The translations under genes and the position numbers were made by a program. From Sinohyriopsis cumingii (lineage: Eukaryota; Mollusca; Bivalvia; Unionida; Unionidae), in the NCBI GenBank assembly GCA_028554795.2, contig CM068835.1:32554311-32618310 (forward strand): a DNA stretch of 64,000 bases, in the 5' to 3' direction. Positions 25,310 through 45,917 of this stretch are shown here, piece by piece; the stretch's first letter is position 1, and each line of letters starts with the position of its first letter. The notes under the pieces were generated by a model. It was given only the letters and a program-made list of their open reading frames with translations, had not been told where the DNA came from and made no database searches.

Positions 25310-25635
25310 AGTAGTGAAGTGGGTCACCCTAGCCTCAATGGGAATTATCATTACAGAGACCCCTGGGTCACTCTAGCCTCAATGGAAAATTAACATGGAG
25401 AAAAATCGTGGGTCACTCTAGCCTCAAGGGGAATTTAACATGGGAAAAAGTCTTGGGTCACTCTAGCCTCAAGGGGAATTGAACATGGGGGAATAAAGTG
25501 TGGGTCTATTTAGGGACAAGGGGGGAATTGAACATGGGATTTGTTTTTTTTTTAAATTTAAAAAAAGGGGTAGGCAATGGAAAGTCATTCTCTTTTCGAG
25601 AAATATGGGTGGCCCTGAAAAGGGCCTTTGGGTTT
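25310..25635 (+). repeat. Left terminal inverted repeat of Polinton B
   Basis: Begins AGTAGTGAAGTGGGTCAC and matches the reverse complement of 45589-45917 up to GGGCCTTTGGGTTT. The outer about 225 bp is built from four to five direct repeats of about 45 bp, each starting GGGTCACTCTAGCCTCAA and ending near GAACATGGG. The inner end contains an outward-reading histone-type stem-loop. Confidence 0.93.
25611..25626 (-). terminator. Histone-type 3' stem-loop, left TIR
   Basis: On the minus strand the 16-nt core is GGCCCTTTTCAGGGCC (6-bp stem, TTTC loop), preceded by CCAAA and followed by ACCCA, so 25606-25631 matches the 26-nt metazoan histone consensus. A purine-rich CGAAAAGAGAATGA follows at about 25600-25587, like the U7-paired histone downstream element. 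It lies 24-29 nt after the stop codon of the 25655-26245 gene. Confidence 0.85.
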
Positions 25636-25654
25636 TCTTCTTCTTCTTCTTCTT

Positions 25655-26245
25655 CTAACTCCTTAACTTCTTCCACCATCCTCTTATTTTTTCCATCATT
25701 CCTTTCTTCTTTTCTGTTTCCGGCATCCAGTCCGGGTGACCCATGGCTCGGAACTTCTCTTGGATTTTCATCCAGTTTGCGTTTAGTTTCTCTAGTTCTT
25801 CCTTTTTCTTTCTACTTTCTTCTTCTTTTCTTTCCTTTGACCACTTTTCTTTGATCTTCTTGACCTCTTCGGTCAGCACATTCCTCATTACTTCTTCCGC
25901 TTTCTTAAGCTTGTCTAAGCCCCACTTCATAAAAGACCAATCTGTCCATTCTACAATGTCTTCCAAAAAACACCTTACACTCGTCACATAAACTATCGCT
26001 TCTTTCAACTTACCCACTTTCACATACGGTGGGTTAATTAAACCTCTGATTCTCTTCTCCTCATCCTCTATCATTTCTTTTATAATATCGATGGCTAAGT
26101 GGAAGCTGGTTACTTGTCTTGAGACGAAGTCTTTTGTCACTGCATGCCTCCATTCCTGTTCAAGCCTTTCTGCTACATTCAATCCATCCACCATCCAATA
26201 CCAACTTCCCATAAGGTTGTTGTACAAAGCTGAAGCTGCTGGCAT
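25655..26245 (-). CDS. Left-arm gene a, charged helical protein of unknown function
   Basis: 196 residues from ATG 26245, no lesions. The N-terminal half has hydrophobic/aromatic helices (NNLMGSWYWMVDGLNV, CFLEDIVEWTDWSFMKWGL). The C-terminal half is a Lys/Glu-rich coiled coil (about residues 118-160) ending in WWKKL. No family recognised. The gene is a single transcription unit: TATAAAAC about 55 nt upstream next to the shared promoter motif, and a histone-type stem-loop directly downstream inside the TIR. It is absent from copy A, whose left end is lost. Confidence 0.7.
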   Translation of the reverse strand: MPAASALYNNLMGSWYWMVDGLNVAERLEQEWRHAVTKDFVSRQVTSFHLAIDIIKEMIEDEEKRIRGLINPPYVKVGKLKEAIVYVTSVRCFLEDIVEWTDWSFMKWGLDKLKKAEEVMRNVLTEEVKKIKEKWSKERKEEESRKKKEELEKLNANWMKIQEKFRAMGHPDWMPETEKKKGMMEKIRGWWKKLRS

Positions 26246-26296
26246 CTTCTTGTTTGCTTATTCCGTAGAATGGGCTCCAATGGCAAACACTGTAAG

Positions 26297-26337
26297 TTTT
26301 ATACTTAAAGCGCGGACGTGATTGAAAACATCCCCCC
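26297..26337 (-). promoter_or_regulatory. Promoter of left-arm gene a: shared motif plus TATA
   Basis: Minus strand: GGGGGATGTTTTC, then TCACGTCCGCGCTTT (26308-26337), then TATAAAA (26297-26303). The same module stands before genes b and c. A second copy without TATA lies at 26379-26404. Confidence 0.7.
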
Positions 26338-26378
26338 AAGACATAAAATTGATATTACCAAGATCATGACCAAACAAC

Positions 26379-26404
26379 GCGCGACGTGAAGGAAAACATC
26401 CCCC
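26379..26404 (-). promoter_or_regulatory. Second copy of the left-arm promoter motif
   Basis: Plus strand ACGCGCGACGTGAAGGAAAACATCCCC, minus one or two bases relative to the other copies, about 45 bp upstream of the gene a promoter. It is preceded by AAGATCATGACCAAACAAC, a stretch repeated at about 27150-27170. Confidence 0.55.
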
Positions 26405-26591
26405 ACTTTTCTCATTTCGTATAATAAAACCCAAACTATACTCTCCACATACGCTAAGAAACAATAAAAAAACCATAATCTACTATTCACACAAACTTAC
26501 GTGAACGGTTACAAACACAATCACTAACACACAAACACATACACTCGCATTATTAAGAAAAGAGTTAGTGTTTATATTCACACTACTCTAC

Positions 26592-26592
<1 letters not shown>

Positions 26593-26628
<36 letters not shown>
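26593..26628. repeat. (CA)n microsatellite inside Polinton B
   Basis: Uninterrupted CACACA run between left-arm genes a and b. Its absence from the parallel spacer at 27430-27450 suggests local expansion. Confidence 0.95.
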
Positions 26629-26629
<1 letters not shown>

Positions 26630-26668
26630 TGGCAAATGTATAGCTATTTCTTTTCTAGAGTATTGGGT

Positions 26669-26684
26669 AGCCCTGAAAAGGGCT
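26669..26684 (-). terminator. Histone-type 3' stem-loop after left-arm gene b
   Basis: Minus-strand core AGCCCTTTTCAGGGCT with CCAAC before and ACCCA after (26664-26689), then purine-rich TCTAGAAAAGAAATAGC. It lies about 30 nt beyond the stop of 26718-27026. Confidence 0.85.
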
Positions 26685-26717
26685 GTTGGGTTTTTTTTGA
26701 ACTCCAGATGCACCTAT

Positions 26718-27026
26718 CTAATGATGGCACCTTCCTGGCCTGGCGCCACACACGCATCTTCTTCCCCAGTCTCCTTTCACCTTTCTTCTTGGGAGTGCAG
26801 AGGCGGGATGATTGGCTTCAGCATCCCAATCCTCTGTCTCTGGTATCTTATAAGCCATCCTCTCTCCTATTTTCTTTTCCTCCTCTTCCCTCTCTCTTCT
26901 CTCCTCCTCTTCCTTCTTTATTCTTGCCTTTTCTACTATGGCTTCCGCGGATAGTTCATTTACTATGCGCCTGGCATATTCCAGGTGCATCTGGAGTTCT
27001 AGCAGTTTCACAATTCTGGTGTTCAT
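26718..27026 (-). CDS. Left-arm gene b, small Glu/Arg-rich protein
   Basis: Open from ATG 27026 (MNTRIVKLLELQ): 102 residues. There is a helical N-terminus, a strongly charged E/R/K coiled coil (about residues 34-53), and a basic C-terminus with three Cys (RRCVCGARPGRC). No family recognised. It has its own TATA (27083-27089) and shared promoter motif, and its own histone-type stem-loop. No counterpart in copy A. Confidence 0.6.
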   Translation of the reverse strand: MNTRIVKLLELQMHLEYARRIVNELSAEAIVEKARIKKEEEERREREEEEKKIGERMAYKIPETEDWDAEANHPASALPRRKVKGDWGRRCVCGARPGRCHH

Positions 27027-27082
27027 TCTTCTGGTCGTGTTGATCAATCAACAAGGGTAGCTAGACTGCCGAGCGAGTTTCA

Positions 27083-27121
27083 ATTTATACTGAAAGCGCG
27101 GACGTGATGGAAAACATCCCC
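27083..27121 (-). promoter_or_regulatory. Promoter of left-arm gene b
   Basis: Minus strand: GGGGATGTTTTCCATCACGT and CCGCGCTTTC (27092-27121), directly followed by TATAAAT (27083-27089), about 57 nt before the ATG at 27026. Confidence 0.72.
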
Positions 27122-27490
27122 CTAAAAACATAAAATTCATCTTACCTAGATCATGACCAAAAAACAACGCGCGGACCTAAAAGAAACACTCACTCACTTT
27201 TTTATGCTACCCATTCCTATTCTAAAAATTTTTTGTTATTAACCACTTCAATAGACTGTGGATACGCAAAGCAATCCAATCTAACCCCAAATCTACACCT
27301 CAAACACCAAAAAAGACATCATTTTAATCTACTATCCTCACCAACCTACGTGAGCACTTACAAACACACAATCTTATACACAAACACATACCCTCACATT
27401 TTTTAAAAAAGAGTTAGTGTTTATATTCACACTACTCTACCTACACACATTGGCAAATTGATGGTTATTTCTTTTCTAGAGTATTGGGGT

Positions 27491-27506
27491 AGCCCTGAAA
27501 AGGGCT
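27491..27506 (-). terminator. Histone-type 3' stem-loop after left-arm gene c
   Basis: Minus-strand core AGCCCTTTTCAGGGCT, followed by ACCCCAATACTCTAGAAAAG. The flank has one extra C relative to the ACCCA consensus. It lies about 38 nt past the stop of 27544-27912. A decayed copy of it sits at 5059-5074 in copy A. Confidence 0.82.
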
Positions 27507-27543
27507 GTTTTTTTTTTTGTTGTTTTTGCTATGGCAATCTTTT

Positions 27544-27912
27544 CTAGTTTCTAAGAATGCGATGTCCTCTGAGGATAGACTTTTTGACGATAGGTCTGCT
27601 TCTTCGGAAAGAGAAGAAGAACTCTTTGGTGTCGATACGACAATCGACAAAGCCTCTGTCAGCTTCAGGTTGCTGCTGCTGCTGCTGTTGTTGTTGTTGT
27701 TGTTGCTGTTGCTGCTGTCTCTGAAGTCTGTACTTCTCTGTCCATTCTTCTTTCTCCCTGTTCACTTCTTCTCTGAAGAGCTCTTCTATCAGGTCTTCAG
27801 TGACTTTTAACATTCTCACATTCTCTATCTCTTCTGGCTTCGGTATCAGACTGTGTCTGACCCTATGCAAATTCACGTAGGCTTCGTTGAGCTTAGCTAG
27901 TTTGGAGCACAT
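27544..27912 (-). CDS. Left-arm gene c, polyglutamine-containing protein
   Basis: From ATG 27912 (MCSKLAKLNEAY) to 27544, 122 residues; an in-frame stop lies just upstream. A conserved helical N-terminal half (LAKLNEAY.NLH, ENVRMLKVTEDLIEELFREE) is followed by a run of about 16 glutamines encoded by mixed CAA/CAG, then a basic C-terminus. The N-terminal half is conserved in copy A (2850-3020). Function unknown. The shared promoter motif is at 27976-28004, with no clear TATA. Confidence 0.65.
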   Translation of the reverse strand: MCSKLAKLNEAYVNLHRVRHSLIPKPEEIENVRMLKVTEDLIEELFREEVNREKEEWTEKYRLQRQQQQQQQQQQQQQQQQPEADRGFVDCRIDTKEFFFSFRRSRPIVKKSILRGHRILRN

Positions 27913-27975
27913 CTTCGTAGGAGGATGAGTCAACTATGGATGGTTAGACTGGAAACAACCCCGGTTCTTAAAGTC

Positions 27976-28004
27976 AAAGCGCGGACGTGAAGGAAAACAT
28001 CCCC
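27976..28004 (-). promoter_or_regulatory. Promoter motif of left-arm gene c
   Basis: Plus strand AAAGCGCGGACGTGA followed by AGGAAAACATCCCC, the best match among the copies, about 64 nt upstream of ATG 27912. A decayed version (CAAGCGCGACGCGATAG) is at about 3086-3115 in copy A. Confidence 0.7.
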
Positions 28005-28132
28005 ACACGGTTTTCGAGTCGCAACGTTCAATGAGTGTCATGAGAGGGATAGTAAGAAGTGAAAGAGCATCAATCAAACATTCTTATAGCTAAACAAAAG
28101 ACAAAGGCATTTTTTTCAAAACACAACATTTT

Positions 28133-28138
28133 TTTATT
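28133..28138 (-). terminator. AATAAA downstream of the protease/structural gene block
   Basis: TTTATT on the plus strand, about 115 nt after the protease stop, embedded in ACACAACATTTTTTTATTCA, which is conserved in copy A (3233-3238). It suggests ordinary polyadenylation for the structural block. Confidence 0.6.
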
Positions 28139-28251
28139 CAAAAATCACTTAACACTAACCAACAACAACTCTAACATTTTTAACAATAATCCAACACTAT
28201 AACATCAAACATTTTTTTCAAATCACAAACATTTTTTCTTCAATTCACACT

Positions 28252-28811
28252 CTACTTTAAACAGGGCTGACAACGTTGTGAATGAAATTGTGATTTCCAT
28301 TGTTGGAAGTCATTAGGCCATTGATGGACACTACGTTTCCTAGCTTGAGACAAAAGATAAGCATAATGGTCACAAAACCATCGATCTACTTTCACATCAT
28401 TTCTTGAAGAAGAACGAGGATCAAAATGAGTCACTAAATGTTCTAAGGAATAGCCCAGGCTGCGATGATGCAGAAAATACACACAGTACTGTCCACACAC
28501 CAAGGAATCTGTGCCTTGTAATTTCACATTATTGAATCGGATTGTCTGAGCATTTCTTCTCATAAAGTCGATGATATCGTCTTCCAAAGGGGAAATCCGT
28601 ACGAATCGAAATATTCCACACGTCCTTCTTGAGGAAAGTAGACGGCTACCCAGTGGGTTCCTGGGAGATGACTGTCGTCCGTGTTGATCACGTAAGCTTG
28701 ATGGTCTTTAGGTTTGCGATGAGGGAGTTCATCTTTAGCACAGACGACAGGATTCCAAGAAGACGTATACGAACTGTGGTTCAAAAGGTAATAAAGTTCC
28801 CAGGTATCCAT
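28252..28811 (-). pseudogene. Adenain-like cysteine protease (maturation protease), one frameshift
   Basis: Polinton/adenovirus-type virion maturation protease. From ATG 28811 (MDTWELYYLL) the N-terminal frame carries the catalytic His block GTHWVAVYF and the acidic block EYFDSYG. A 1-nt difference in a C-run just after it (about 28588-28593) shifts the frame, and the second frame carries EDDIIDFMRRNAQ and the Cys block VCGQYCVYFL. Catalytic residues are all present, but the gene is split, so it is inactive as it stands. It lies downstream of the C/H-rich gene, as in other Polintons where protease neighbours capsid genes. Confidence 0.85.
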
Positions 28812-28828
28812 TTGTGTTGTTTTCTTCT

Positions 28829-29302
28829 TCACAGGTAATAATAAGTCGTCAATTCGATCCTGACTTTTTGCTTGAAAATGTTTGACAAATAACCGTTTCT
28901 TCGTTTCGTCTCCTCACTTTGATTCAGGAGAGCTTCAATGCGATCGATCTCTTGAGTGGTTAATGGTGGACAGGAATGTTCACGCAAGTCTTTATACCAC
29001 TGGTGCAACACGTTTTCGTCCGAGATGAGACTCCAAGCCTCGTCCAGATACTCGTCCAATTTTTCTTCTTGACTCAACATCAGGCATTTATCGTGTTGAA
29101 TTTGACTGGGATGGTCGTTTTGACATCCATAGCAATTTTTCTTGATCAATTCCGTCATTTTTTTGACCAAGTCTTGTTCTGGCCATCTTGACTTCATCAT
29201 GATATCTTCTTCGTCTTTGTCTTGGGATTCTTCTTCCACAGTTTCCTCACATTTCATCTTCAAAGTTTCTCCACTAGGTAAAGAGGATTAACAGTCTTCC
29301 AT
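28829..29302 (-). pseudogene. Small C/H-rich Polinton protein, nonsense codon 5
   Basis: Starts MEDC at 29302, five bases beyond the capsid stop. Codon 5 is TAA; a later in-frame Met (29263) could still give 144 residues. Acidic N-terminal region, then CYGCQNDHPSQIQHDKC, a C-x2-C..H..C pattern that looks zinc-binding, then helices ending KVRIELTTYYYL. This block is recurrent in Polintons, but its function is not known to me. Copy A has the same gene with other lesions. Confidence 0.65.
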
Positions 29303-29307
29303 GGTTT

Positions 29308-30631
29308 CTAGTAATCTAGGATGACTTCTCTCAAACTGTTGATTTCTATCGTATTATCGAATTCTGCATACAGGATGACGTTCACTGTGTTCTCTGCATC
29401 CAGTGGACTCGCAAACTGAATTTCCACACGAATCTGGCCAGATTTTATAGGGTGGAAATGTCCCTCGTCGCTGCCTTGGTCTGGAGTGAAATCGAAAGCC
29501 CAGAAAGCGTAGCCTCCTGCATAATCGTCGTACGTAATGCCGTGACTGGTGTTGGTTCCTAACTGTCCGGTAGCTTCGTACAGGGACAAGTAAGATCTCA
29601 AATAATTCTTCGCGGCACCAAAGTTAGGCTCAAAGGGTCGGGTACACAAGGTCTTGCCATCGCGACTGACTTCAATCTTGGACACATTGTAATGATTAAA
29701 GTAGAAAGGATTTTCGTTGTAGGCTCCATTGAAAGCTGAATTCTTGACGATACCAACAATCAAACGTTTGGGTAACTGTCCTTGGAACAGATGACCTTCG
29801 ATCATGGATCGCTGTCCGGAAGGAATGGTGAAGGTTTTCACTTCCACGCGACGTATCGGATACTTGGCGGTCGTTCTGCTCAACGTCTGACTGATGTCGT
29901 TTCCCACTTTAGGCAACACTTCCACACGTCGCACGTATAGTCTGGCTTCATCGATTTTGGTTTTGTAAGTGGCATCAGCAGCAGCCATCAAATGGAAAGC
30001 AGCACTGCTGCGATTCAGTCTCAGGGGGATATCAACCCCGTTCAGCAAATACTTTTCTTGTAACCACATGTCCAAATGCAAGCAATCCATCAGTTCTAAA
30101 CTACGACTTCCAGCAATTTTCTTTTGTCGTTCTACAAATCCCGTTGGATTTGAAGCATCCCCAGCAAGTGTAATGCCGTTGAACCTAGTCGCTTGGTCAG
30201 GTTTCCATACCACGCAATCATCCAGATGAGTGTTCTTGGCTTCTTTTCCGTACGTCAAGAGATTTTCCAGGTAGGCTCGATAAGGGTAAGTATCCATGCT
30301 GCTGCTGACCAGTTTGTTATTCAAGTACAAGTCCACTTCGCTGAACAAGGAATGCATGAAATTATTGATGGGAGCTACTGCTTCATCAGCGTCTATGTTA
30401 GCGTTGGGTGGTTCGATCACTTTCACTTTCAAGTATAGGTAACTGCTATTCAGATCGATGTAATCTTCGGGCTGTCCTTTGATTTCAAACTCGATGGGAG
30501 CGGAACCGGTCAATGAGGAGACGGGATGAAATTCCACCCACTGGGATTCTTGCATCGTCATCATGGTGGGGGGGCATGGCAAACATATCCAGTTCCGACT
30601 TGGAACAAGCACATGACTCTCGGTGCATCAT
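29308..30631 (-). pseudogene. F54H12.2-like jelly-roll capsid protein (probable major capsid), one frameshift
   Basis: About 440 codons. The true start is at 30631/30628 (MMHRESCAC), as judged from copy A. A 7-G run on the plus strand at 30568-30574 puts the start out of frame with the remaining 434 codons. Family blocks: WVEFHPVSS, APIEFEIKGQPEDYIDL, HSLFSEVDLYLNNKLV, YPYRAYLENLL, LLNGVDIPLRLNRS, TAKYPIRRVEVKTF, FQGQLPKRLIVGIV and ILYAEFDNTIEI. The length fits a double jelly roll, so major capsid is the better guess, though I cannot exclude the penton role. In copy A the same gene is disrupted by a 0.5-kb segment. Confidence 0.82.
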
Positions 30632-30644
30632 TTTTTTCTGTGTC

Positions 30645-31060
30645 TCAATAATCGAAAACGTCTAAGTCTCGAACGGTTCTTCTTTTCTTGGCCTTTCTAG
30701 CTTGAAGTCTGGTGAAAGGGTGTTTTCTTCGTCGTCTCTTTCTACCTTGTCCTTGCTGAATGCCTGATTCGGTAGCGTGCAGGGCATTTATAGGTGTGTC
30801 TCGTCGGCCCAAAATGTCTTTACCCGTTTGCAGCAAGACATTTTTGCCAGCCCTCATGAAGGCTTCTTTAGGTTTTGTTTGTCGATGATGACATTTTGGA
30901 GAAATTCTTTCCCTTGCGTCACTGCCGCATCTTTCAAGGCGTGCAATCCGCGTGTCACCATCGGTTTCAACACCGGGGCCACCGAACGAAAGGCCGATTT
31001 TAACATATCTCCTAAACCGTGTCCTCGCTGTCGAGCAACCCCTTGGTACACTGGATACAT
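30645..31060 (-). pseudogene. Small basic core-like protein, one frameshift
   Basis: Two overlapping frames (31060-30854 and 30857-30645) form one gene of about 138 codons, broken by a 1-nt deletion near 30884 relative to copy A. The first part has a conserved helix (DMLKSAFRSVAPVLKPMVTRG). The second has GKNVLLQTGKDILG and a very basic tail (GRKRRRRKHPF, KKRRTV) ending DLDVFDY. Position between the two capsid genes and its composition suggest a DNA-condensing or capsid-internal protein, comparable to adenoviral core proteins; this is inference. Confidence 0.68.
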
Positions 31061-31063
31061 GAC

Positions 31064-31993
31064 TTAAGAGTCGTGAGAAAACCGTTTTCGAAAATGGAGT
31101 TTCACCGTGACTTTTCCTTTGGTGAATGGAATATTTTGTCCCAAATCTCCTTTCATAGTAATGTTGACCGTGTCCAAATACGACTTGCTGACGGGCAAAT
31201 AGTGAGGATGGACAAATTAGCGGTGGACGTGGTAAGTGTTTCCACCTTCCTCGTCAGCGTTCGTGGCAGAATCCACTTTGAAAGGAATGACACGCAGTAA
31301 CGGCACGGAGGTGTGTCCCACCACGTTGTACTCCACCACATCGGAATACACGAACATCAAATTCAGTCCTTGATTCAGTTCTACTGGGGTACGAAATAAC
31401 TTGGTAAAAGACTCGTTGTCGTAAACGATGGGTAATTCGTTTTTCTTCATCATGGCCATTCTCATGTTTATGTCTCCGCCCAACATGTCAAACAATTCAG
31501 GACAAAATAAAATGGACATGATTTTACTCCGTTCAAATTTCATCGAGAAGCGATGAGCTGCTTTGTGGTACTCCATGGTGACACTTTTGTTGACATGCTC
31601 CAAAGCTCTAAGAAACACGCCATTAAACCTGGTGGCTATGGTGCTGACCAAATGTTGACCACTAAAATAATAGCCTGGGGGAATGAACAAGTGATAGGTG
31701 GTGTACTTTTGATTTTGTGTACGGGTTTTCTTGTCATATTTGACATGGGTATCCAAGTACTGTTGCATTTGCTCGTCATGAACTTCCACATCAAAAAAAT
31801 TTTGATTGGGAAGGACATTGAGGACTTGAGTCGGGTGAATGATTTCTACCAAAGCCACTTCCCAATGGGCTTCGTGATCTAATGGGATGGCCTGAGGTAA
31901 TTTGGCCGTGTAACAGCACAACGTGTTGTTGGGAAACACATCCATGGAACTGTCACTGGGTAAGGTTAAGTAAAATTGGTTTTGGTAACTCAT
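31064..31993 (-). pseudogene. Second capsid protein (probable minor/penton), nonsense mutation
   Basis: 310 codons from ATG 31993. A TAA at 31217-31219 removes the last about 51 codons, which remain open to 31064. Blocks: NQFYLTLPSDSSMDVFPNNT, YTAKLPQAI, WEVALVEIIHP, PPGYYFSGQHLV, LFDMLGGD, LNLMFVYSDVVEYNVVG, VPLLRVIPF and VTVKLHFRKRF. It is the recurrent Polinton partner of the F54H12.2-like capsid gene. The assignment to a single-jelly-roll penton is inferred from size and position. The start overlaps the stop of the membrane-protein gene as ATGA. Confidence 0.75.
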
Positions 31994-32409: not shown

Positions 32410-32414
32410 GATGG

Positions 32415-33524: not shown

Positions 33525-33543
33525 TTTTGTGTTGGTTGGTGTG

Positions 33544-34185: not shown

Positions 34186-34234
34186 GGGGTTGTCAGGGGT
34201 CGATTCTGAGATCTTGGGACTTCCGAGGGCCTTT

Positions 34235-34639: not shown

Positions 34640-34687
34640 CTTCAGAAGCACTAAAACACTGATACCCGGCTTGGTCACAGGCCTTTT

Positions 34688-36434: not shown

Positions 36435-36480
36435 AGTGTGAGAAATGTCACTTGTGACACGAAAACAAACAAGACGAGAG

Positions 36481-36488: not shown

Positions 36489-36505
36489 CTTTTTTTCAGA
36501 ACACG

Positions 36506-36511
36506 TTTATT
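36506..36511 (-). terminator. AATAAA at the end of the polymerase-to-membrane-protein block
   Basis: TTTATT on the plus strand within ACACGTTTATTG, conserved in copy A (GGACACGTTTATTGTAGG near 11065). It lies just beyond the stop of 36519-37244, so transcripts from the upstream minus-strand genes can end here by ordinary polyadenylation. Confidence 0.55.
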
Positions 36512-36518
36512 GAATGTT

Positions 36519-37244
36519 TCATACATGAATACGAAAGACAAAAATACATAAAAGCCAAAGGCTTAAGTACAAGGATAAAAGGCACATGATAACCATTAAC
36601 GTGGAATAAACACAAGTGTCTGTACAACAACATGTTTTGGGTAATGTTCTAACCAGTTCTATTGTAGGGGGTAAGGTCACACAAGTGTCCTCCCGAAAGG
36701 GTCTTTCAGGCCTGTCCACGACAGTCCCGTCCTGGTTGACGGGTTCTTCTGGCACCGTCACTAACACGGGTTGAAAAGTAACTTTTTTCCTTGAACAACT
36801 CTCGTGCATACTGGGCCACTTCTTGGGTCCAAGCCTCAAAATCCCATTCTTTCCAGGCACGGACATCTGTCCAATGGGGATGTAAGTCACAAGCTACACA
36901 CACATCGTTATACACGTCTTGGGTAGCTAATAGTTGACGAATCTTTTTTTCCCGTAGAGGTCGAGAAGTATCCAGATGAAACCGCAAGGCTTTGAGCAAA
37001 AGGAGTTTTTCGTGACCATCTAAGGCCATTGAGGTGGTAAGTACTGATCGTAAAGAGTCCACAAAGAATCGGCTGGTAAACGAAATCCCAGAAAACAAGT
37101 CACTAAGACACACACCACTTGTCGACCCAAATTGAATGGATACAGTTCTTGTAATAATCGATGGTAATGATCCACGGTTTGAATATGGTCATTGAGTTCC
37201 TTCCACGGAATCTGTTCAATCACTTGTGACATAATCCGTGGCAT
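36519..37244 (-). pseudogene. Putative membrane-anchored Polinton protein, two frame changes
   Basis: Starts MPRIMSQVIEQIPWKELNDH (37244, TATAAAAT about 12-18 nt upstream). The reading then passes to another frame carrying CLSDLFSGISFTSRF, HLDTSRPLREKKIRQ, and DVCVACDLHPHWTDV (a C/H pattern). It passes back for the C-terminal part, KKVTFQPVLVTVPEEP, RPFREDTCVTLP, and a hydrophobic tail (VYSTLMVIMCLLSLYLSLWL). The first frame change occurs at the same place in copy A, so it may be a splice, a recoding event, or two overlapping genes. Function unknown. Confidence 0.5.
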
Positions 37245-37713
37245 GGCAACTTGATTTTATAGTGTCTTTGTTTCGGAAGCAATAAAGGTAATTTCTAACT
37301 AAACATGTTCGTTCTCCAGTAGGGAATTTAAATGTTACATACTGTAACTGAAACGTCAGAGTTTGTCTAGATGTTTCGTCTTTCTCTAAGCAGATTCCAT
37401 GTAACAAATGTTGGTAATCCTTTAATTCGTCTTCCTCAATACGTTGCAGTAATTGAATCTCGAAGTAACCAAAATTACGAACGTCTAGTTCATCATCATT
37501 CACAAACTGAAAGTGTTCAACAAGGTCTGACCACTGAAACAATTTCTGACGAATCAGTCCTCTTATACCATTCAGGTACCAGTGGTTAAAGATCTGGTGA
37601 CGTAACGGATGCAATTGTTCTTTACGTTTCACTTGTATTTTGACCAGTTCTCTGTAAATCCTTTCTCTCAACTCCTCAGGCAAGCCCAAAATGTTCTCTT
37701 GTAAAGTATCCAT
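37216..37713 (-). CDS. F-box-like paralogue 3
   Basis: 165 residues from ATG 37713 (MDTLQENILGLPEELRERIY). LP.ELRERIYRELVKIQ resembles the start of an F-box, but the rest of an F-box is not obvious. The middle HPLRHQIFNHWYLNGIRGLI and the tail FPTGERTCLVRNYLYCFR match paralogue 1. The 3' end overlaps the start of the next gene by 29 nt. Host-protein degradation via SCF is a possibility only. Confidence 0.55.
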   Translation of the reverse strand: MDTLQENILGLPEELRERIYRELVKIQVKRKEQLHPLRHQIFNHWYLNGIRGLIRQKLFQWSDLVEHFQFVNDDELDVRNFGYFEIQLLQRIEEDELKDYQHLLHGICLEKDETSRQTLTFQLQYVTFKFPTGERTCLVRNYLYCFRNKDTIKSSCHATDYVTSD

Positions 37714-37948
37714 AAGTATATACACTGTTTTTGAAATCCTTGGGTGGTGGCCAATAGCCTCGTTTACCTTTGTGCCTGATGTAATATCCACTCATAATCA
37801 GTCTTCTTATACTTTGGAACAGAGCATAATTTAAAAACGGTTGAATAACTTTGCGTTTGCGTTTCACTTGTATTTTGATCAGTTCTCGGTAAATGCGTTC
37901 TCTCAACTCCACAGGCAAAGCACGAATGTTCTCTAACAAAGTATCCAT
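37676..37948 (-). CDS. F-box-like paralogue 2, short
   Basis: 90 residues from ATG 37948. It shares MDTLLENIRALPVELRERIY with its neighbours, then diverges (RLIMSGYYIRHKGKRGYWPP). It stops early and its end overlaps the start of paralogue 3, so it may be a truncated duplicate. Confidence 0.45.
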   Translation of the reverse strand: MDTLLENIRALPVELRERIYRELIKIQVKRKRKVIQPFLNYALFQSIRRLIMSGYYIRHKGKRGYWPPPKDFKNSVYTYGYFTREHFGLA

Positions 37949-37960
37949 GAATAGGTCATA

Positions 37961-38419
37961 CTAAATCCTCTTTGGTCTGACACAAGAAATGTACTCTTTG
38001 CACAAACATGGTTTTACTTCAGTGTCGAATTTAAATCGTTTAGTCACTAATCTACACATTACAATTCGTTCAGAAGTTTCCTCTTTCACTAAGTTGACAT
38101 TTTGTTCAAGATGTTGGTAATTCGTTAACTCTTCCTCTGGAATTCGATGCAGTACGTTTACAATGATGTAGTAGATAGAATCGTCCATAACAAACCAATC
38201 CTTTTTAAAACTAGGGGATCGTTGATCAATGTCTGTCCAATGGAACACTTTCAATTGAATCAATCCTTGTATAGCCTTCAGGTACCAGTGGATCAAACAC
38301 CGGTGACGTAACGGATGCAATTGTTCTTTACGTTTCACTTGTATTTTGACCAGCTCTCGGTAAATGCGTTCTCTCAACTCCACAGGCAAAGCACGAATGT
38401 TCTCTAGCAAAGTATCCAT
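37961..38419 (-). CDS. F-box-like paralogue 1
   Basis: 152 residues from ATG 38419 (MDTLLENIRALPVELRERIY). Shared blocks are QVKRKEQLHPLRHR..HWYLKAIQGLI, IPEEELTNYQHLEQN, and a Cys-containing tail CLCKEYISCVRPKRI. First of three tandem copies; copy A retains at least two decayed members in the same place. Function unknown beyond weak F-box likeness. Confidence 0.58.
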   Translation of the reverse strand: MDTLLENIRALPVELRERIYRELVKIQVKRKEQLHPLRHRCLIHWYLKAIQGLIQLKVFHWTDIDQRSPSFKKDWFVMDDSIYYIIVNVLHRIPEEELTNYQHLEQNVNLVKEETSERIVMCRLVTKRFKFDTEVKPCLCKEYISCVRPKRI

Positions 38420-38441
38420 GAACAGATTATGGTAAGTTACT

Positions 38442-39080
38442 TCAATGTCTCGGTCCCACTAAGGGTAAGTAATGACAATGCGGTGACCATCGAGCATGTT
38501 CTACGTAGGCCGAATCTTGCGGTTCCCAGTAATGAAGTGACACACCGCAACTGAAGCACTTGACTTTATCTCCTTCGCCCAAGTAGAAAAATCCGGCTCT
38601 GGCTAATTCTTCAGGGGTCGGTCCTCCCAGATACTTAGGCCATTTTCCTTTGAACGATTGAAGACGATTTTCAAAGTCATAGTATTCCGACAAACGTACA
38701 GGAAACGAATATTCGTCTTTCACAGGTTCGTTTCGATGAGGGTTGAGTGACATGGGCAGGAGTTTGCTCAGGGCTGGATGACATCCGTAGGGGGGTAGAC
38801 GTGAAGGTGAACATTCCCCTTTAAAACGAAACCCAGTAAAATGTCCAAGAGGACGAGCGGCATCACTTTCGCATCCCTCAGGTTTGACACGCACAGCATC
38901 ACTTTCCATGATAGGGGTAGTGAGAACAAAGTTCCCATGATGCTTTACGGCATCGCTAAGGTCACAACGTACAGCATCGTACCCATCGCAAGGCTCACAA
39001 TCGCATTCCACTTCAGAAGCCTCACACTTGAATTGTGCCTTTCTAAACAACTTGTTTTGTGTTTCTCTGAAAGTATTCAT
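38442..39080 (-). CDS. BIR-domain (IAP-like) protein 2
   Basis: 212 residues from ATG 39080, TATAAAAA about 55 nt upstream. The N-terminal half is repetitive (ESDAVRVKPEGCESDAARPL, DAVRCDLSDAV) and Cys-rich. The C-terminal BIR domain reads RLQSFKGKWP..ELARAGFFYLGEGDKVKCFSCG, then the pair EHARWSPHC, with zinc ligands C-x2-C, H and C in place. There is no RING. Viral BIR proteins bind caspases or IAP antagonists and suppress apoptosis; that role is inferred. Copy A has a homologue with an intact BIR. Confidence 0.82.
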   Translation of the reverse strand: MNTFRETQNKLFRKAQFKCEASEVECDCEPCDGYDAVRCDLSDAVKHHGNFVLTTPIMESDAVRVKPEGCESDAARPLGHFTGFRFKGECSPSRLPPYGCHPALSKLLPMSLNPHRNEPVKDEYSFPVRLSEYYDFENRLQSFKGKWPKYLGGPTPEELARAGFFYLGEGDKVKCFSCGVSLHYWEPQDSAYVEHARWSPHCHYLPLVGPRH

Positions 39081-39138
39081 CTTGTTCTCTCGGTCTTGGA
39101 AGTCACAATGAACTATCGATCTTGACCATAGCCCCTTT

Positions 39139-39597
39139 TTATACTAGTCGCAATGCAGTCTCCAGCTTGTACATCTTTCCTTTTTTATGTTTTTTATGTC
39201 TTGTTCTGGAAGGTACCGTCTCTAAGGTACCGTCAACATTGTACTTTAGTGTGATGGGTGGAAAGGCCATAGAAAGGTAAGGGCAGTGCGGAGACCATCG
39301 AGTATGTTCCAGAATAGCTGAATCTTTATAGATACATAGATCCATTCGTAACTTCAGTCCGCAAGCGAAACACTGTACCTCGTATCCCAATCCTGACTCA
39401 GGTCCCAAGTAGACAAATCCTGTTCTAGCTAAAACATGCGAAGAAGGTAATCCTTCCCTATGGGTAGGCCATTTCTGAAACGTGTCCAATCGACGGGCAC
39501 AATCACAATAGTCAGGTAAGAAGACTGGAAAATGGTAGGGTTTGAACTTGGAGTTCTCATCGGGTTTCTCACTCGATTCTTGCTGTGTCGAAGTCAT
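39139..39597 (-). CDS. BIR-domain (IAP-like) protein 1
   Basis: 152 residues from ATG 39597, TATAAAAC about 35 nt upstream. BIR: RRLDTFQKWP, LARTGFVYLGPESGLGYEVQ, CFACGLKL, EHTRWSPHC; basic tail RHKKHKKGKMYK. Zinc ligands conserved. It is absent from copy A at the corresponding site (polymerase end directly abuts BIR 2), so it is either a gain in copy B's lineage or a deletion in copy A. No RING domain. Confidence 0.8.
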   Translation of the reverse strand: MTSTQQESSEKPDENSKFKPYHFPVFLPDYCDCARRLDTFQKWPTHREGLPSSHVLARTGFVYLGPESGLGYEVQCFACGLKLRMDLCIYKDSAILEHTRWSPHCPYLSMAFPPITLKYNVDGTLETVPSRTRHKKHKKGKMYKLETALRLV

Positions 39598-39620
39598 CCT
39601 TCTAGCGTGTGACTATCCTC

Positions 39621-42600
39621 TTACAACCAATGTTTTATACCAACGTGTCCATACGGTAAGGTGAAATGATTGGGAAGTCGAACTCGCTTCTGGTACACGA
39701 TTTGATAGACTTTTTCCAAGGGCCGACTGACGATGTGGTGAGTGGGTAAACGTACAATCTTGTTCGGTTGATAGGTGGTCACTTTAAAGTTTCCATCCTC
39801 TACCGATTGCAAGGCTTCTTTCAATACCCCAATGTTGACCACTCGACTGGTACGATAATTCAGAGTCAGTCCTTTCACTTTGCACGTCGTGTGCACTTCT
39901 CCTTGTTTGTCCCGGTATTCGTAGCCGTAATTTGTGGGACCGCCACTGACGAAACTTAGAATCTTGTCGTCGGGATGCTCGTCTGTCCAGGCTCCTAAAC
40001 GGTCTCCTTCGATGCTAGGGTGCTGTTGACTCGGATGATGGATGTAAATGCAACTGTCCATGTCAAAGTACAGGACGCGTTCCCCTAACAGTTCTAAAGC
40101 TTCGTACAATTTTAAGCGAGCATGAGCTGTCACGTAAGCCGCAATGATGACATTTCCAAAAGGGTCGTCTTGTACGAAGTCCAGATCTTCTTCGTAATTG
40201 ACCAAGATCAAATCCTCTCGAACGACGTCCACGTGTTTCATGTATTTGGTTTTGTCGTGAATCATCTGGAAGTAGCGGGAAGGTTCTGTCAAATATTCCG
40301 TCTTGGGTAAACACGGTCGTTGTGCCATTTTACCCCACAAGCAATTTAACATCACTTTGGCAAACGATCGCCTGCCTTCGTTTTTCTCGATGTGGTCTAA
40401 AGAGATGCCTTCTTGTTCATAGTATTTCTCTTTGAATTGTATTTGGTCTTCGGGAGTGTGACACCAGGACGGATAGCCGCTGACTTCTTGTTTCAGTTTC
40501 AAAAAGGCATCCACGTAGTCGGCTAAAATGCCTTTTTGACTGGGATCACCCTTGTGGTATTGTTGTGTCTTGGGAAAGTGGCAAATTTCGTACACTTCTA
40601 ACAGTTGGTATCCCATGTCCAGAGCTTTGAACAATTCTACGCTGACCCAGGTTCCCGTCAAGGCACGTTCTTCCTGGGTGTGATGGCAAGGCTGGTCTTG
40701 GTTGCACGTTTCGGCACAAGTACGGCACAAGGGAAACATCAGTTTGCCTTGACAATGGTGAGGTAAGACGGGATGGTACAAGTCTGTGGGAGGCAAAACT
40801 TTACACTTGATCAAGCCTTCGTATTGTCGAATGTTTTTCAGGTCGATGTGTTCCGTCAGCAATTGTGGGTGCCCTACAGGAAAGCGACAATATTTGCACA
40901 CGTAGGGATACAGCGAACACACGTCCAAGTATTTGATTTCTTCTCCTTTCTCTTCGTCGGCTTGGTACAGCAAACAGGTGGCATTGGTCCTTCCTCCGTA
41001 CAAACTATCCCTCGGGTTCAGCGGGTCCATGAACTGGTAACTTTCCACGAGGCGTTTAAACTCGGGATCGGTTTTCATGCGGTGATCGTACTCGTGTTCC
41101 CACATTTCCACCACTTGGTATCCTTCCTGTTCCAACTTTAGGCGCCGCTGACAAGTGTCCTGGTACAAGTCTTCCATGGTTCGTTGTAAAAACTAATTTT
41201 TAGTTCTACGGTCAGGGTAACAGACGGGACATCCGTGAAATAAGCAACCGTTAAACTCGTACACGATCTTGGTTTTTTCTAAGTCCCAGCCATCGACCGA
41301 ATACGTTCCGATGGTCTTTTCACCCCCTCCGTTGCGGGCATGCTGAATCCACTTGTCTTCCTTGTCACACAAGTAATGTAACCAACGTAGGGCTTTGACC
41401 GAGTATTGACGTTTGACATAGTGGGTCGTTTGAGGGCTGATGACAGCCACGGTGTTTTCAGGCATGAATCGTTATCGATACACTAAGGAACACGCTTTAG
41501 CAATGGTGCAAGCTTCTTTCAAAGGATCGACCCCTCCGTGTTCCATGAACAGTTCTCGAAATTTTCCACAGCAACGTCGTAAAATGTCCACGTCGGAACG
41601 ACAATAATTTAGCATTTCACCCTGAAAGTCGAAAGGGTCGGAGGCGTGAGCCTGGTACCAAGCGTAGAAAGCTTCTCGTTGTTCGGTACGCATGTTGTCG
41701 GGGTCGTAATAGTGAGCCTCAGGTAAATGGGGTAGAACGGCGTGTTGGTTGGCTTCCGTATTGAAAAAGTGTGGAAAGTACCCTTTAGCCATTTCTGTCA
41801 TTCCAAACGTTTTAGGCATTCGACTCAAAGGCATGGCCAAATAGCTCATCGAATCTTTAAACTGCACTTGTCCCACTTGCATGAAAATGATTTTGGCTCC
41901 GTTCAAAGTCACTTTAGGACGCTCGGTGCTTTGTTCCGTATAGTACCTCAAAAGAAACTGTCCATCGTATCCGGAGAAATTGTGAGCCATCACCGTGGCA
42001 TGACGATGACAATCTCCGTAACGTTCGATGTCCTCTTGGCTCCACGTCTTGTCGATGGGGTCTAAAACCCATTGTGCAAAATCGGCTAACGTGTTCGGTC
42101 CCCGAAAGATTTTTTCACGTCCTCCAGGAATCTTGCTGCAGTGAGGGCAATGACTGAAGATAGGTTCTTGAATTCACTTCTCGCACGCTCGATGAGCCAC
42201 GCAGAAATTAGGAATGTGAATGCCGGTCTCTTGCATGCATTCGAAATCGAAAAAGATGAAATTGCCTTTCTTCTTGTGACCGTCCTCTTTCTCTGGTGGG
42301 GGTTGGTATTTTTGCACGTAGCACTAGTGTTCGAAGTCCACGATGTGGTGACAAATGTGACATTTTTTCTTTCCTCGACATACGTGTGCCTTGGCATTAT
42401 TGGTAAGTATGCCTTGTCCACAGGTAGGGCACAATCTCAGCAGTTGACAAGCACATTTCTTCTGTGAACCTTGTGTTTTCAAATGTTGTTGGTAACAGGT
42501 AGGACTGACAAACGTGCGCAGACAAGTTGAACAAGGCACTGGTCCTTCGCTCAGACAGGGTGGAGAGGCCAAACATCCTGGGCATTTCATTCCACAATGT

Positions 42601-43658
42601 TTGTGTTGCTCTCGATTGCTATAACCATAATCACATTTCTCACAATAATAAACATATCCCAGGAATCCGGTGATGGTGGTAATGGTATCGAAATGGTCAT
42701 CGTGATAATAAACATGAATGTATTTTCCGTCCTTAAAATCTTGGCCTCGAAACAACAGAGGCCCGTGCATTTCTTGAGGGTGCACTTTCAAGGTGTATCG
42801 TGGAGCTAGGGCATCTTGCAATTTTTGCATCTCAGGAATGCCACAGGGTGTGTCTTTGGACAGGCCAGCTTGTTGTAACAGGAGTTCTGCTTCGTTTCGT
42901 TGTTTGGCTCGGTCCGATTGTCGAATAGTTTTCCAGGCTCTTTTCCATTCTACCGTATCGTTCTTGTTGGCATAGGTTCGTCCCACCACGATGGCACGGG
43001 CTAAACACATCTGGTCTTGAGGGTTGTTAATTCGGACGAGACTTGTTTTGGTGTTGCGAAGGTCGTCCACCAATAAGATCTTTTTGCGTCCAGTCCCTTG
43101 AGGAGGAGAGACGTGGGTCATGTCCAGTGTGGCTTTTCCATCGGTGATGTCAAACTGGTCATTAGATTGTTGTACGTGTTGAATCTTGTCCATGACTTTG
43201 GAAGCGGTCAATTCTGCAGGGGTGCTAAACTCGATCCAAACAGGGGATTTCAAACCGTCGTGTTGTATAGAAAGTCTCAAGCGATCGTCTTCTTTGGGTT
43301 GACATTGTCGCTTGAGTGCGGTGAGCAAAGAATCCCACACCCCAGTGATGAACACTTCTGCTTTCTCTAACGGTACTTCAGCCTTGAAATCTTTAAACTT
43401 CACCGTGTATTTGTAAGCCGTGGTTCTAAATTTTCTAGAGGAGCGCTTTTCCGTCTCTCGAATGGAATAGTATTTTTCAGGGTTGACTAAGGATGGTGAA
43501 CTTGGTTTAGAGGGTTCGGATTCTGGTTCACTCATGTCCTCTTCAAAATCACTGGCATGAATTTGTGCCAAGACTTCAGCTCTGGTACGAGGCGATAGAT
43601 CACGTTTCTGCCTCTTACTTTCTTCTTCTTTCTTCTCGAATGAATAGGATCGTTTCAT
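39621..43658 (-). pseudogene. Protein-primed family B DNA polymerase, four in-frame stops
   Basis: One frame of 1345 codons from ATG 43658 to TAA at 39621, without any frameshift but with in-frame stops at 42324-42326 (TAG), 42174-42176 (TGA), 41472-41474 (TAA) and 41193-41195 (TAG). The N-terminal third ends in a Cys/His-rich zinc-ribbon region (YYCEKCDYGYS, CPGCLASPPC, CSTCLRTF). The exonuclease domain has FFDFECMQETG, MAHNFSGYDGQFLL and YCRSDVDIL. The polymerase domain has motif A LDVCSLYPYV, motif B NCLWGKMAQRP and motif C YFDMDS (M where T is usual). The TGA is at the same codon in copy A. TATAAAT lies at 43706-43712. Confidence 0.92.
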
Positions 43659-43705
43659 CTTGAGTGCAAAACGTCAAATGACTCAAGTGTAAACACCATA
43701 GACTA

Positions 43706-43712
43706 ATTTATA
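43706..43712 (-). promoter_or_regulatory. TATA box of the polymerase gene (divergent promoter, minus side)
   Basis: TATAAAT on the minus strand, about 48 nt before ATG 43658, 20 bp from the opposite-strand TATA of the CCHC gene. Together they form a compact divergent promoter. Confidence 0.6.
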
Positions 43713-43731
43713 GTCATGGCAAACCAGCGTA

Positions 43732-43739
43732 TATAAAAG
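43732..43739 (+). promoter_or_regulatory. TATA box of the CCHC gene (divergent promoter, plus side)
   Basis: TATAAAAG in GCGTATATAAAAGGGTGTGTG, about 54 nt before ATG 43793. The same sequence with TATATATAAAGGG is at about 16548 in copy A. Confidence 0.7.
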
Positions 43740-43792
43740 GGTGTGTGTCTTGTTCTTTCACTATTCATTTCACTCTCAAGCCGAGCACAACG

Positions 43793-44287
43793 ATGGAAGA
43801 GACTACCCAAATCGAACGTTTCGTCAGAGCTTTGCGAGGGGTCATTAGAAAATTCTCTTCAGACCAGCCGACGGACTACTCTCCTTCCTTTCGAGATAAA
43901 AGTCAAGATACTTGCTATATCTGTCAGAAGAAAGGGCATTGGTCTTCAGAGTGTCCAGACCGTCAAAAAAGAACAAAAACAGGGGCTAAAAAAGACAAAA
44001 GTCAAGATACCTGTTATTATTGTCAAGAAAAAGGACATTGGTCTCCAGATTGCCCAAAAAAGAAACAAGAGGAGTCAAAAGAAAAGAGGAATTCTTCAGA
44101 AGAAGAGAGGGATTCTTCGGAAGAAGAGAGGGATTTTTCAGAGGAAGAAAGCAGACAGGTGAAGAAAAAGAAACAGGAGAAGAAAAGAAGAAGGGAAGAA
44201 AGTGAGGAGGAAGAAGAGGAAAAGAGTGTGACGGTGAAGAAATTAAAAACCAGAGAGACTAAACAAGGAGAAAGAAGAAGTCAATGA
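43793..44287 (+). CDS. CCHC zinc-knuckle protein with charged tail
   Basis: 164 residues from ATG 43793 (MEETTQIERFVRALRG); intact. Two retroviral-type zinc knuckles, CYICQKKGHWSSEC and CYYCQEKGHWSPDC (both C-x2-C-x4-H-x4-C), spaced by a Lys-rich linker. Then a Ser/Glu repeat region (SSEEERD repeats, candidate CK2 sites) and a K/R/E-rich tail. There is no capsid-like Gag domain, so it is not a Gag polyprotein. Likely a single-stranded nucleic-acid-binding protein; role in the element unknown. Plus strand, divergent from the polymerase. Copy A has a broken homologue. Confidence 0.78.
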   Translation: MEETTQIERFVRALRGVIRKFSSDQPTDYSPSFRDKSQDTCYICQKKGHWSSECPDRQKRTKTGAKKDKSQDTCYYCQEKGHWSPDCPKKKQEESKEKRNSSEEERDSSEEERDFSEEESRQVKKKKQEKKRRREESEEEEEEKSVTVKKLKTRETKQGERRSQ

Positions 44288-44514
44288 ACTTTTTATTAAA
44301 GTGTTGTGTTGTGAATTGTGAATTGGATTGTAACAATGGATAAAAGAATAAATTAATGATATAAGGTAAGTGTCCTTGAGTTTTGATTTTAAAATAAGAA
44401 GCTATACTCACGCACTCATACAAAGACACGTACTATAGGGGTAAAATGTTTTTTTTGTTGATTTTTGAGTTATTGGCAAATTGAAAGCGCTATCTCTTTT
44501 CGAGAGATGTGGGT

Positions 44515-44530
44515 GGCCCTGAAAAGGGCC
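44515..44530 (-). terminator. Histone-type 3' stem-loop after the right-arm minus-strand gene
   Basis: Minus-strand core GGCCCTTTTCAGGGCC, followed by ACCCACATCTCTCGAAAAGA, i.e. ACCCA and a purine-rich element. It lies about 22 nt beyond the stop of 44552-45123. Confidence 0.85.
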
Positions 44531-44551
44531 TTTTTTGGTGTAGGGGTGAGT

Positions 44552-45123
44552 TTAAGCAATCAACTTTAACTGCCTTAAGCCTTTGCCACGGCCAAGGCCT
44601 ACTTCTGGACTGCGTAATGTTGATGATGATTGGGTTGAAATCACTAAGGGTGGTACGGTAGGCTTAGTCACAGGGTTGACGTGTTTAGCTCGGGAAGGTC
44701 GTATTCTCTTCGGTCGTAATAAAGAAGTCTGATACATTTGTTTCAGACTTCTTAACTCCGCTAAAATGTCCAACAGTACCGTGACCGTTTGATTTTCACC
44801 CTCTTGTTTCTTTGCTGCTACTTCTTCTTGCTGTTGTTGCTGTTGTTTTTTTTTACCTCTTCTTCTTGCTGCTGCTGTAGGAGAAAAGCTTGTTCCGTTT
44901 CCTTTTGTCGTTGTATAAATTTCTCCAATTCTTCTTTCTGTCTCTGTCTAAAATTCTCCACTTACGGTAATGAAGAAGGTAACGAAGGTTCCGGAACAAA
45001 TTCTTGCGAGATAAGAAAATCCACAAAATCCCAATGTACCTCTTCTGAAAGTAAGTCCGGGTTCCCTTGGGCAGTCTCCCCTGCTGGTGCACCCCAATGG
45101 ATCGTTTTCTGAGTTTCCGTCAT
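44552..45123 (-). pseudogene. Right-arm Gln/Glu-rich coiled-coil gene (copy B, broken)
   Basis: Homologue of the intact copy A gene 17350-17982. It starts at ATG 45123 (MTETQKTIHWGAPAG), runs into an in-frame stop at about 44965 and a frame change in the Q/K-rich region. The last 73 codons are open (DILAELRSLKQMYQTSLL, GLGRGKGLRQL). TATATAG lies at 45172-45178. Confidence 0.7.
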
Positions 45124-45171
45124 GCTGAATCACTGTCGCATAGATTGACTGCACACAAGCGCTAGCGAATC

Positions 45172-45178
45172 TATATAG
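45172..45178 (-). promoter_or_regulatory. TATA box of the right-arm minus-strand gene
   Basis: TATATAG, about 50 nt upstream of ATG 45123, preceded on the minus strand by GTGACGTGACGTGG and two CCAAT-like boxes (ATTGG on the plus strand at about 45210 and 45250). Arrangement conserved in copy A near 18030. Confidence 0.6.
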
Positions 45179-45290
45179 ACCACGTCACGTCACAGACTGC
45201 TCTCTTCGGATTGGATGCGGGCTGACTGAATTTTGTAACGCGTGTTCGGATTGGTGAATGAACTCAATCCGTTTCAATCCTTCCTCTACC

Positions 45291-45298
45291 TATAAATA
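45291..45298 (+). promoter_or_regulatory. TATA box of the small right-arm plus-strand gene
   Basis: TATAAATA, 45 nt before ATG 45343, on the other side of the same CCAAT-containing divergent promoter. Confidence 0.65.
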
Positions 45299-45342
45299 AG
45301 CGCAGTTCACTGCATTGATTCACCTGTTCTCGTCGCTTCAAG

Positions 45343-45573
45343 ATGTGGACCACAGTCGAATCATCCACCCTTGTGTCTTCCATGATGTTTAGGAAGGACA
45401 TGCTCATGTATGTCCGGTCCAAGTGGACCGTTGTCGACAAGTCAGACACCAGTCTGTGGATACGAAGAGTGTACGTAGAAAGACAAGGTTGCCTCAAGAG
45501 GACACTGATTTATGGCCCTCGAGTAAGACGCAGCTTGAGGACAAGAAGATGCCGCAGATGCCCTTTATGTTAA
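45343..45573 (+). CDS. Small basic Cys-containing protein at the right end
   Basis: 76 residues from ATG 45343 (MWTTVESSTLVSSMMF). The C-terminal half is basic (CLKRTLIYGPRVRRSLRTRR) and ends CRRCPLC. Conservation of the same frame in copy A (VESSTL, LMYVRS, CLKR.LIYGP, RCPLC) supports real coding. It has a TATA box 45 nt upstream, and a perfect histone-type stem-loop 20-25 nt after the stop, so the unit looks like a histone gene in layout although the protein is not a histone. Function unknown; a nucleic-acid-binding role is possible. Confidence 0.7.
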   Translation: MWTTVESSTLVSSMMFRKDMLMYVRSKWTVVDKSDTSLWIRRVYVERQGCLKRTLIYGPRVRRSLRTRRCRRCPLC

Positions 45574-45588
45574 TGGATACATTAACAT

Positions 45589-45917
45589 AAACCCAAAGGC
45601 CCTTTTCAGGGCCACCCATATTTCTCGAAAAGAGAATGACTTTCCATTGCCTACCCCTTTTTTTAAATTTAAAAAAAAACAAACAAATCCCATGTTCAAT
45701 TCCCCCCTTGTCCCTAAATAGACCCACACTTTATTCCCCCATGTTCAATTCCCCTTGAGGCTAGAGTGACCCAAGACTTTTTCCCATGTTAAATTCCCCT
45801 TGAGGCTAGAGTGACCCACGATTTTTCTCCATGTTAATTTTCCATTGAGGCTAGAGTGACCCAGGCATCTCTGTAATGATAATTCCCATTGAGGCTAGTG
45901 TGACCCACTTCACTACT
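45589..45917 (-). repeat. Right terminal inverted repeat of Polinton B
   Basis: Reverse complement of the left TIR with few differences; ends CTTCACTACT at 45917, followed by the ACCAAT duplication. Carries the same iterated 45-bp units and the stem-loop 45598-45613. Confidence 0.93.
45598..45613 (+). terminator. Histone-type 3' stem-loop, right TIR
   Basis: Core GGCCCTTTTCAGGGCC with CCAAA directly before and ACCCA directly after (45593-45618), matching the 26-nt metazoan histone consensus throughout. A purine-rich CGAAAAGAGAATGA follows at 45626-45639, at typical histone-downstream-element spacing. Confidence 0.88.

Follow-up and report, generated by a model that had tools for sequence, protein, structure and literature searches.

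The Polinton and its genes

The window analysed here is a stretch of 64,000 nucleotides (nt) of Sinohyriopsis cumingii DNA (assembly GCA_028554795.2, contig CM068835.1, positions 32,554,311 to 32,618,310), and all coordinates below are counted from its first letter unless another sequence is named. It holds a Polinton, here called copy B, with an older related copy, copy A, to its left. Copy B is recognised by its terminal repeats, its target duplication of 6 base pairs (bp) and its gene set, and the genes of its two arms are followed by a stem-loop of the type that ends animal histone genes.

25310–45917, no strand: Polinton copy B
25304–25309 and 45918–45923: target-site duplication ACCAAT, 6 bp, read directly from the sequence
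25309–25635, no strand: left terminal inverted repeat, identical to the right repeat at 324 of 330 positions
45589–45918, no strand: right terminal inverted repeat
25655–26245, minus strand: arm gene 1, open frame, 196 residues, charged
26718–27026, minus strand: arm gene 2, open frame, 102 residues
27544–27912, minus strand: arm gene 3, open frame, 122 residues
44552–44947, minus strand: right-arm minus gene, final open stretch of a gene that is interrupted in copy B
45343–45573, plus strand: right terminal arm gene, open frame, 76 residues, basic

Between the arms, the core frames are mostly packed tightly head to tail. Pfam identifies a DNA polymerase B of the viral and organellar type (PF03175), an rve integrase (PF00665) with a chromodomain (PF00385) and an A32-type ATPase (PF04665), and a BIR protein is also present. 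Two further frames, which we take to encode the capsid protein and the protease, match no Pfam family. The capsid-type protein has 654 homologues; the named ones among the 120 listed are mostly 'F54H12.2-like' proteins of bivalves, and the best named relatives come from Mercenaria and oysters.

The arm proteins match no Pfam family above the cut-off, and none of the five tested contains an LXCXE motif. Arm gene 1 has nine homologues of unknown function, on contigs of 0.6–1.1 kb. A promoter-like motif, GATGTTTTC[CA][TA]TCACGTC, lies upstream of all three left-arm genes (at 26332, 27118 and 28001, minus strand), with one additional copy at 26400 (minus); it has no exact match ahead of the right-arm genes or anywhere else in the window.

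The histone-type signal

Each of the five arm genes is followed by a stem-loop and, further downstream, by the sequence GAAAAGA. Scores are those of the Rfam Histone3 covariance model (RF00032), for which the gathering score is 34 bits.

25611–25626, minus strand: stem-loop of arm gene 1, 40.8 bits, 28 nt past the stop
26669–26684, minus strand: stem-loop of arm gene 2, 31.9 bits (below gathering), 33 nt past the stop
27491–27506, minus strand: stem-loop of arm gene 3, 29.3 bits (below gathering), 37 nt past the stop
44515–44530, minus strand: stem-loop of the right-arm minus gene, 39.5 bits, 21 nt past the stop
45598–45613, plus strand: stem-loop of the right terminal arm gene, 40.8 bits, 24 nt past the stop
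25591–25597, minus strand: GAAAAGA of arm gene 1, 13 nt past the stem
26649–26655, minus strand: GAAAAGA of arm gene 2, 13 nt past the stem
27470–27476, minus strand: GAAAAGA of arm gene 3, 14 nt past the stem
44495–44501, minus strand: GAAAAGA of the right-arm minus gene, 13 nt past the stem
45627–45633, plus strand: GAAAAGA of the right terminal arm gene, 13 nt past the stem

A preliminary description of this DNA had placed five stem-loop cores at these positions and strands, some 20–40 nt after a stop codon, each followed by ACCCA (in one case ACCCCA) and a purine-rich stretch. All five cores are exact matches, the measured distances are 21–37 nt, ACCCA follows the stems (ACCCCA at the 27491 site), and the purine element is the GAAAAGA listed above. 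As a count of five arm-gene sites the description needs some qualification: all are present, but the two terminal ones are a single sequence and should be counted once, because both lie in the arms of one terminal inverted repeat, and the gene before the 44515 site is interrupted. The sites at 26669 and 27491 look like relatives.

The covariance model bears the preliminary description out, in that it matches all five sites, three of them above the gathering score (25586–25631, minus; 45593–45638, plus; 44490–44535, minus) and two below it (26644–26689, minus, E 2.8e-5; 27467–27511, minus, E 2.7e-4). The 16-nt core occurs five times exactly in the window and eight times with at most two mismatches, against a mean of 0.05 over 100 shuffles, none of which gives eight. 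The stem-loop is part of the predicted minimum-energy fold at all six sites that were folded. It is worth adding that at three of these six (25586–25631, 44490–44535 and 45593–45638) GAAAAGA sits inside a predicted second hairpin of 5–6 bp, which could conceal it from U7.

Two of the five sites fall within the terminal inverted repeat, the inner edge of which is 9 nt ahead of the stem. Such a position would suit an element that acts at the level of DNA, with a role in replication, packaging, integrase action or the terminal repeat itself, and that resembles a histone signal by accident. However, the other three sites are internal, all five are on the sense strand shortly 3' of a stop codon, and ACCCA with GAAAAGA at 13–14 nt, for which a DNA hairpin has no need, matches the histone genes of the host described below. 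We consider a DNA-level element very improbable.

Two kinds of gene end

AATAAA or ATTAAA is found within 200 nt of the stop in none of the five genes with a hairpin and in 3 of the 23 other listed frames: the protease-end frame has one at 114 nt, the zinc-knuckle gene has them at 8 and 60 nt, and g36519 has one at 8 nt. Conversely, none of the five hairpins lies within 200 nt of any of those 23 frames.

28133–28138, minus strand: AATAAA, 114 nt past the final frame of the core block (presumably the protease), which has no hairpin
44347–44352, plus strand: AATAAA, 60 nt past the zinc-knuckle gene (43793–44287), which has no hairpin

This distribution bears on the possibility that SLBP is recruited by the hairpin but no histone-type cleavage follows, the arm messages being polyadenylated further downstream; the hairpin would then serve export, translation or decay, or would titrate SLBP or U7 away from the host histones. 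The lack of a polyadenylation signal within 200 nt of the five stops argues against it. In its favour, cleavage at these sites is something that we infer, and human histone pre-mRNAs can also take canonical ends (PMC9756948).

Comparison with the host histone genes

Tandem histone arrays were found in the 2.9-Gb host genome (150 of 662 candidates scored), and four stretches of them were fetched. They contain 24 Histone3 sites, scoring 35.0–39.4 bits, which are the ends of H3, H4, H2B, H2A and H1 genes (identified by means of the L089 frames); the best named relatives of the H1 are from Mytilus and oysters. The host stems read GGCCCTTTT[TCA]AGGGCC or GGTCCTTTTCAGGACC, and the downstream element is GAAAAGA, but GAAAAGG in H2A. 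Its distance from the stem is 14 nt in H2A and H1 and 13 nt in the other three genes (H3, H4, H2B). H2B has exactly the GGCCC form of the Polinton stem-loop, and CTCTAGAAAAGA is common to H2B and arm genes 2 and 3. Because stems, element and spacing all correspond, the Polinton signal is, as judged from its sequence, of this host's own histone type.

The identity of the H2B hairpin also makes capture of the signal from a host histone gene plausible. It would also suit a passive leftover, in which a single capture of a host histone 3' end was followed by its copying along with the arms, without any function. Against this, the signal follows five different genes, and the two sections below supply further evidence.

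Conservation in other copies of the Polinton

RF00032 was run over the host genome and gave 75 scored matches, all above the cut-off, from 589,472 first-look candidates; 50 of the 75 were examined. By DNA comparison, 49 of these correspond to one of the arm genes of copy B; the remaining one (L055) does not, though the sequence before its hairpin resembles that of arm gene 1. H3 and H4 match the histone loci but none of the 50 places. Although the histone genes carry the signal, no listed histone place is among the 75, and because these known places are absent the scored list is uninformative on relative abundance.

Because the 50 places had been picked by hairpin score, only unpicked sites were used for the analysis of conservation. 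There are 46 of them (19 of the right-arm minus gene, 17 of arm gene 2, 9 of the right terminal gene and 1 of arm gene 1), the set omitting the 40 picked rows and 2 rows in which the coding match stops short of the stop codon. The hairpin is found within two mismatches at all 46; 38 retain all six pairs, and 34 are exact, where 6.7 would be expected if the hairpin drifted like coding sequence. In the three classes with at least nine sites, identity to copy B is 97–100% in the stem-loop and 93–98% in the downstream element, and falls to 32–84% at 60–100 nt and 54–84% at 100–136 nt from the start of the stem. The hairpin is kept in copies whose coding identity is down to 72–80%, which is difficult to reconcile with a functionless leftover. 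The preliminary description had considered that the sequences might lie at random positions relative to genes in relatives; this did not occur, and in these copies the same genes still have the signal at their 3' ends.

GAAAAGA is present at 44 of the 46 sites, 42 times at 13 nt and twice at 14 nt. In known histone genes the purine element serves cleavage, and its retention at this fixed distance speaks against a hairpin that recruits SLBP without cleavage.

A second sample was chosen solely by coding sequence, and consists of the 39 best places for arm gene 1 besides copy B (40 scored of 3941 first-look candidates). Here 38 of the 39 have TAG at the aligned coding end, the gap from stop to stem is 18–51 nt, the hairpin is within two mismatches in all 39 (30 of them exact and 34 retaining all six pairs), and GAAAAGA is present in 36, at 13 nt; these copies are young, at 97–98% identity, and as sequences they show the presence of the signal, not selection on it. 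The same search indicates that the element is numerous, which counts in favour of a hairpin of that kind. Taking both sides together, we regard recruitment of SLBP without cleavage as unlikely.

Degenerate versions of the signal are also found in copy A.

17307–17322, minus strand: degenerate version of the 44515 stem-loop, RF00032 22.3 bits, E 0.11, 27 nt past a frame of 210 residues
18741–18756, plus strand: degenerate version of the terminal stem-loop, RF00032 20.0 bits, E 0.81
5059–5074, minus strand: degenerate version of an arm stem-loop with one pair broken, a near match to the core pattern

The frame of 210 residues (17350–17982) is open in copy A at the place where the right-arm minus gene of copy B is interrupted. 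We also note a break in gene order in copy A: the stretch 2855–5318, which otherwise matches the capsid region, includes a 3' region of the left arm (5017–5318) that carries a degenerate hairpin.

Distant relatives

A scan of prokaryote assemblies with the capsid alignment found seven contaminant contigs. In a distant Polinton (L006), whose capsid-type protein is 31% identical, RF00032 scores 35.8 bits. The hairpin lies 28 nt past the stop of a zinc-finger-like frame of 89 residues, beyond an integrase-like frame and near the repeat-rich end of the contig, and is followed by AAAAAAGAGA. The frame is in an arm position, as in the layout of copy B. This relative thus has its own version of the signal after a different gene, and with this added to the points above, a passive leftover appears extremely unlikely.

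In IMG/VR, no relatives were confirmed by scans with the polymerase, the capsid alignment and the L006 polymerase. Of two stem-loop patterns run there, one had a single match, antisense to an open frame of 280 residues on a 90-kb contig and judged to be due to chance, and the second had none. A separate observation concerns the Bathymodiolus-associated Polinton contig L003, where a weak twister-P1 ribozyme-like match (positions 11644–11708 of that contig; 28.9 bits, below the cut-off of 67.2) adjoins the capsid-type gene.

Proposed mechanism

Our favoured explanation, based on the signal and its context, is that the outer genes are probably processed by host SLBP and the U7 small nuclear ribonucleoprotein (snRNP) into non-polyadenylated mRNAs. 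Each arm-gene transcript would carry the stem-loop, which would be bound by host SLBP, while GAAAAGA would pair with the host U7 snRNP; the histone cleavage complex, with CPSF73, would then cut a few nucleotides past the stem, and the product would be a short mRNA with the hairpin at its 3' end and no poly(A). The core replication and capsid genes, which have no hairpin, probably end as blocks at ordinary polyadenylation signals. There would thus be two classes of message per element, of which the arm class would be linked to S phase and the histone locus body. We infer SLBP binding, cleavage and S-phase coupling because the histone pathway works in this way, and the arm messages would accordingly lack poly(A). 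The adoption of histone mRNA 3'-end formation by a Polinton, as originally suggested, is supported by the covariance matches, the relatives and the host histone genes.

Several observations weigh against this proposal. Two of the six folds are not unusually stable compared with shuffles (z −1.43 and −0.82). In the sample chosen by coding sequence, the 30 exact hairpins are close to the approximately 26 expected from drift at that identity (a calculation by hand). Of the 46 unpicked sites, 12 have an altered hairpin, and in 8 of these one pair is broken, so that the changes in single copies are not compensatory; a paired exchange is clear only where the GG..CC form is compared with the AG..CT form. 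Shared descent of the copies makes their sites interdependent, and each site was tested by itself; the terminal repeat may also be homogenised. RF00032 gives no match in six of the seven contigs related by capsid, which seem to lack arms; judged by frames or length, they are apparently short, decayed or armless.

The host factors were also sought. The U7 RNA was not found, the U7 family (RF00066) giving no match with 65 of 801,960 candidates scored, and no SLBP gene was found among 14 of 14 candidates scored; the control genomes were silent in both searches, which makes them uninformative, as do introns in the case of SLBP. A U7 pattern gave 26 matches, compared with 18 for the reversed control, and none of the 8 inspected had a convincing 3' hairpin past the Sm-like site.

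More tentatively, it is possible, though somewhat doubtful, that animal Polintons generally run a dedicated class of arm genes as non-polyadenylated, S-phase-coupled messages of histone type, and so read the replication state of the host through SLBP and U7. If true, a histone-type 3' end would for the first time be the normal form for protein-coding genes other than histones, and a family of integrating DNA viruses would sense host replication through SLBP and U7. The arm genes form a natural test set for the function of the histone 3' signal, and suggest how a provirus could time its gene expression to host DNA replication.

Other features of the window

The core of copy B contains three adjacent related frames, apparently tandem copies (37216–38419), and two adjacent BIR-like (apoptosis inhibitor) frames (38442–39597), in the first of which PF00653 is matched. 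Pieces of a carboxylesterase-like gene (PF00135) bracket both Polinton copies, with an N-terminal part on the left (1369–2121, 201.7 bits) and a C-terminal part on the right (47290–47862, 19.2 bits, below the cut-off of 27), as if one intron hosts both copies or both broke one gene. The host flank also contains tandem repeats of 28 nt (61422–61925) and 43 nt (49786–50667).

Comparison with known systems

The preliminary description knew of no earlier account of such gene ends. We found no description of histone-type ends on Polinton arm genes in the open-licence literature, most subscription papers being outside this scope. It must however be noted that PMC12220804 tallies six Rfam histone stem-loop matches across genomes of Polinton-like viruses and virophages; in the section concerned, the counts are given without positions, genes, downstream element or interpretation. 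A histone stem-loop match reported for SARS-CoV-2, in a passage of PMC7786107, has 14.7 bits, far under the gathering score of 34 bits, and lies inside a coding region. PMC6210712 describes stem-loops on the histone mRNAs of one bivalve; purine-rich elements accompany only a part of them. The histone-like proteins of adomaviruses (a passage in PMC11071296) are a separate subject, what PMC12721341 and PMC8363768 say about histones concerns other topics, and PMC11244446 makes no mention of the stem-loop or SLBP.

The closest known system is the metazoan histone 3' end (RF00032, with SLBP, U7 snRNP and CPSF73), which shares with copy B the 6-bp stem, the 4-nt loop, the A-rich 5' flank, ACCCA, the purine element at 13–14 nt and the nearness to the stop codon of a short gene. 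It differs in that the genes with such ends in copy B belong to the arms of a virus-like transposon and encode no histones. With animal Polintons, Mavericks and adintoviruses, copy B shares its gene set (polymerase B, integrase and A32-type ATPase), terminal inverted repeats and 6-bp target duplication; unlike the animal Polintons described, it has arm genes that bear histone-type ends.

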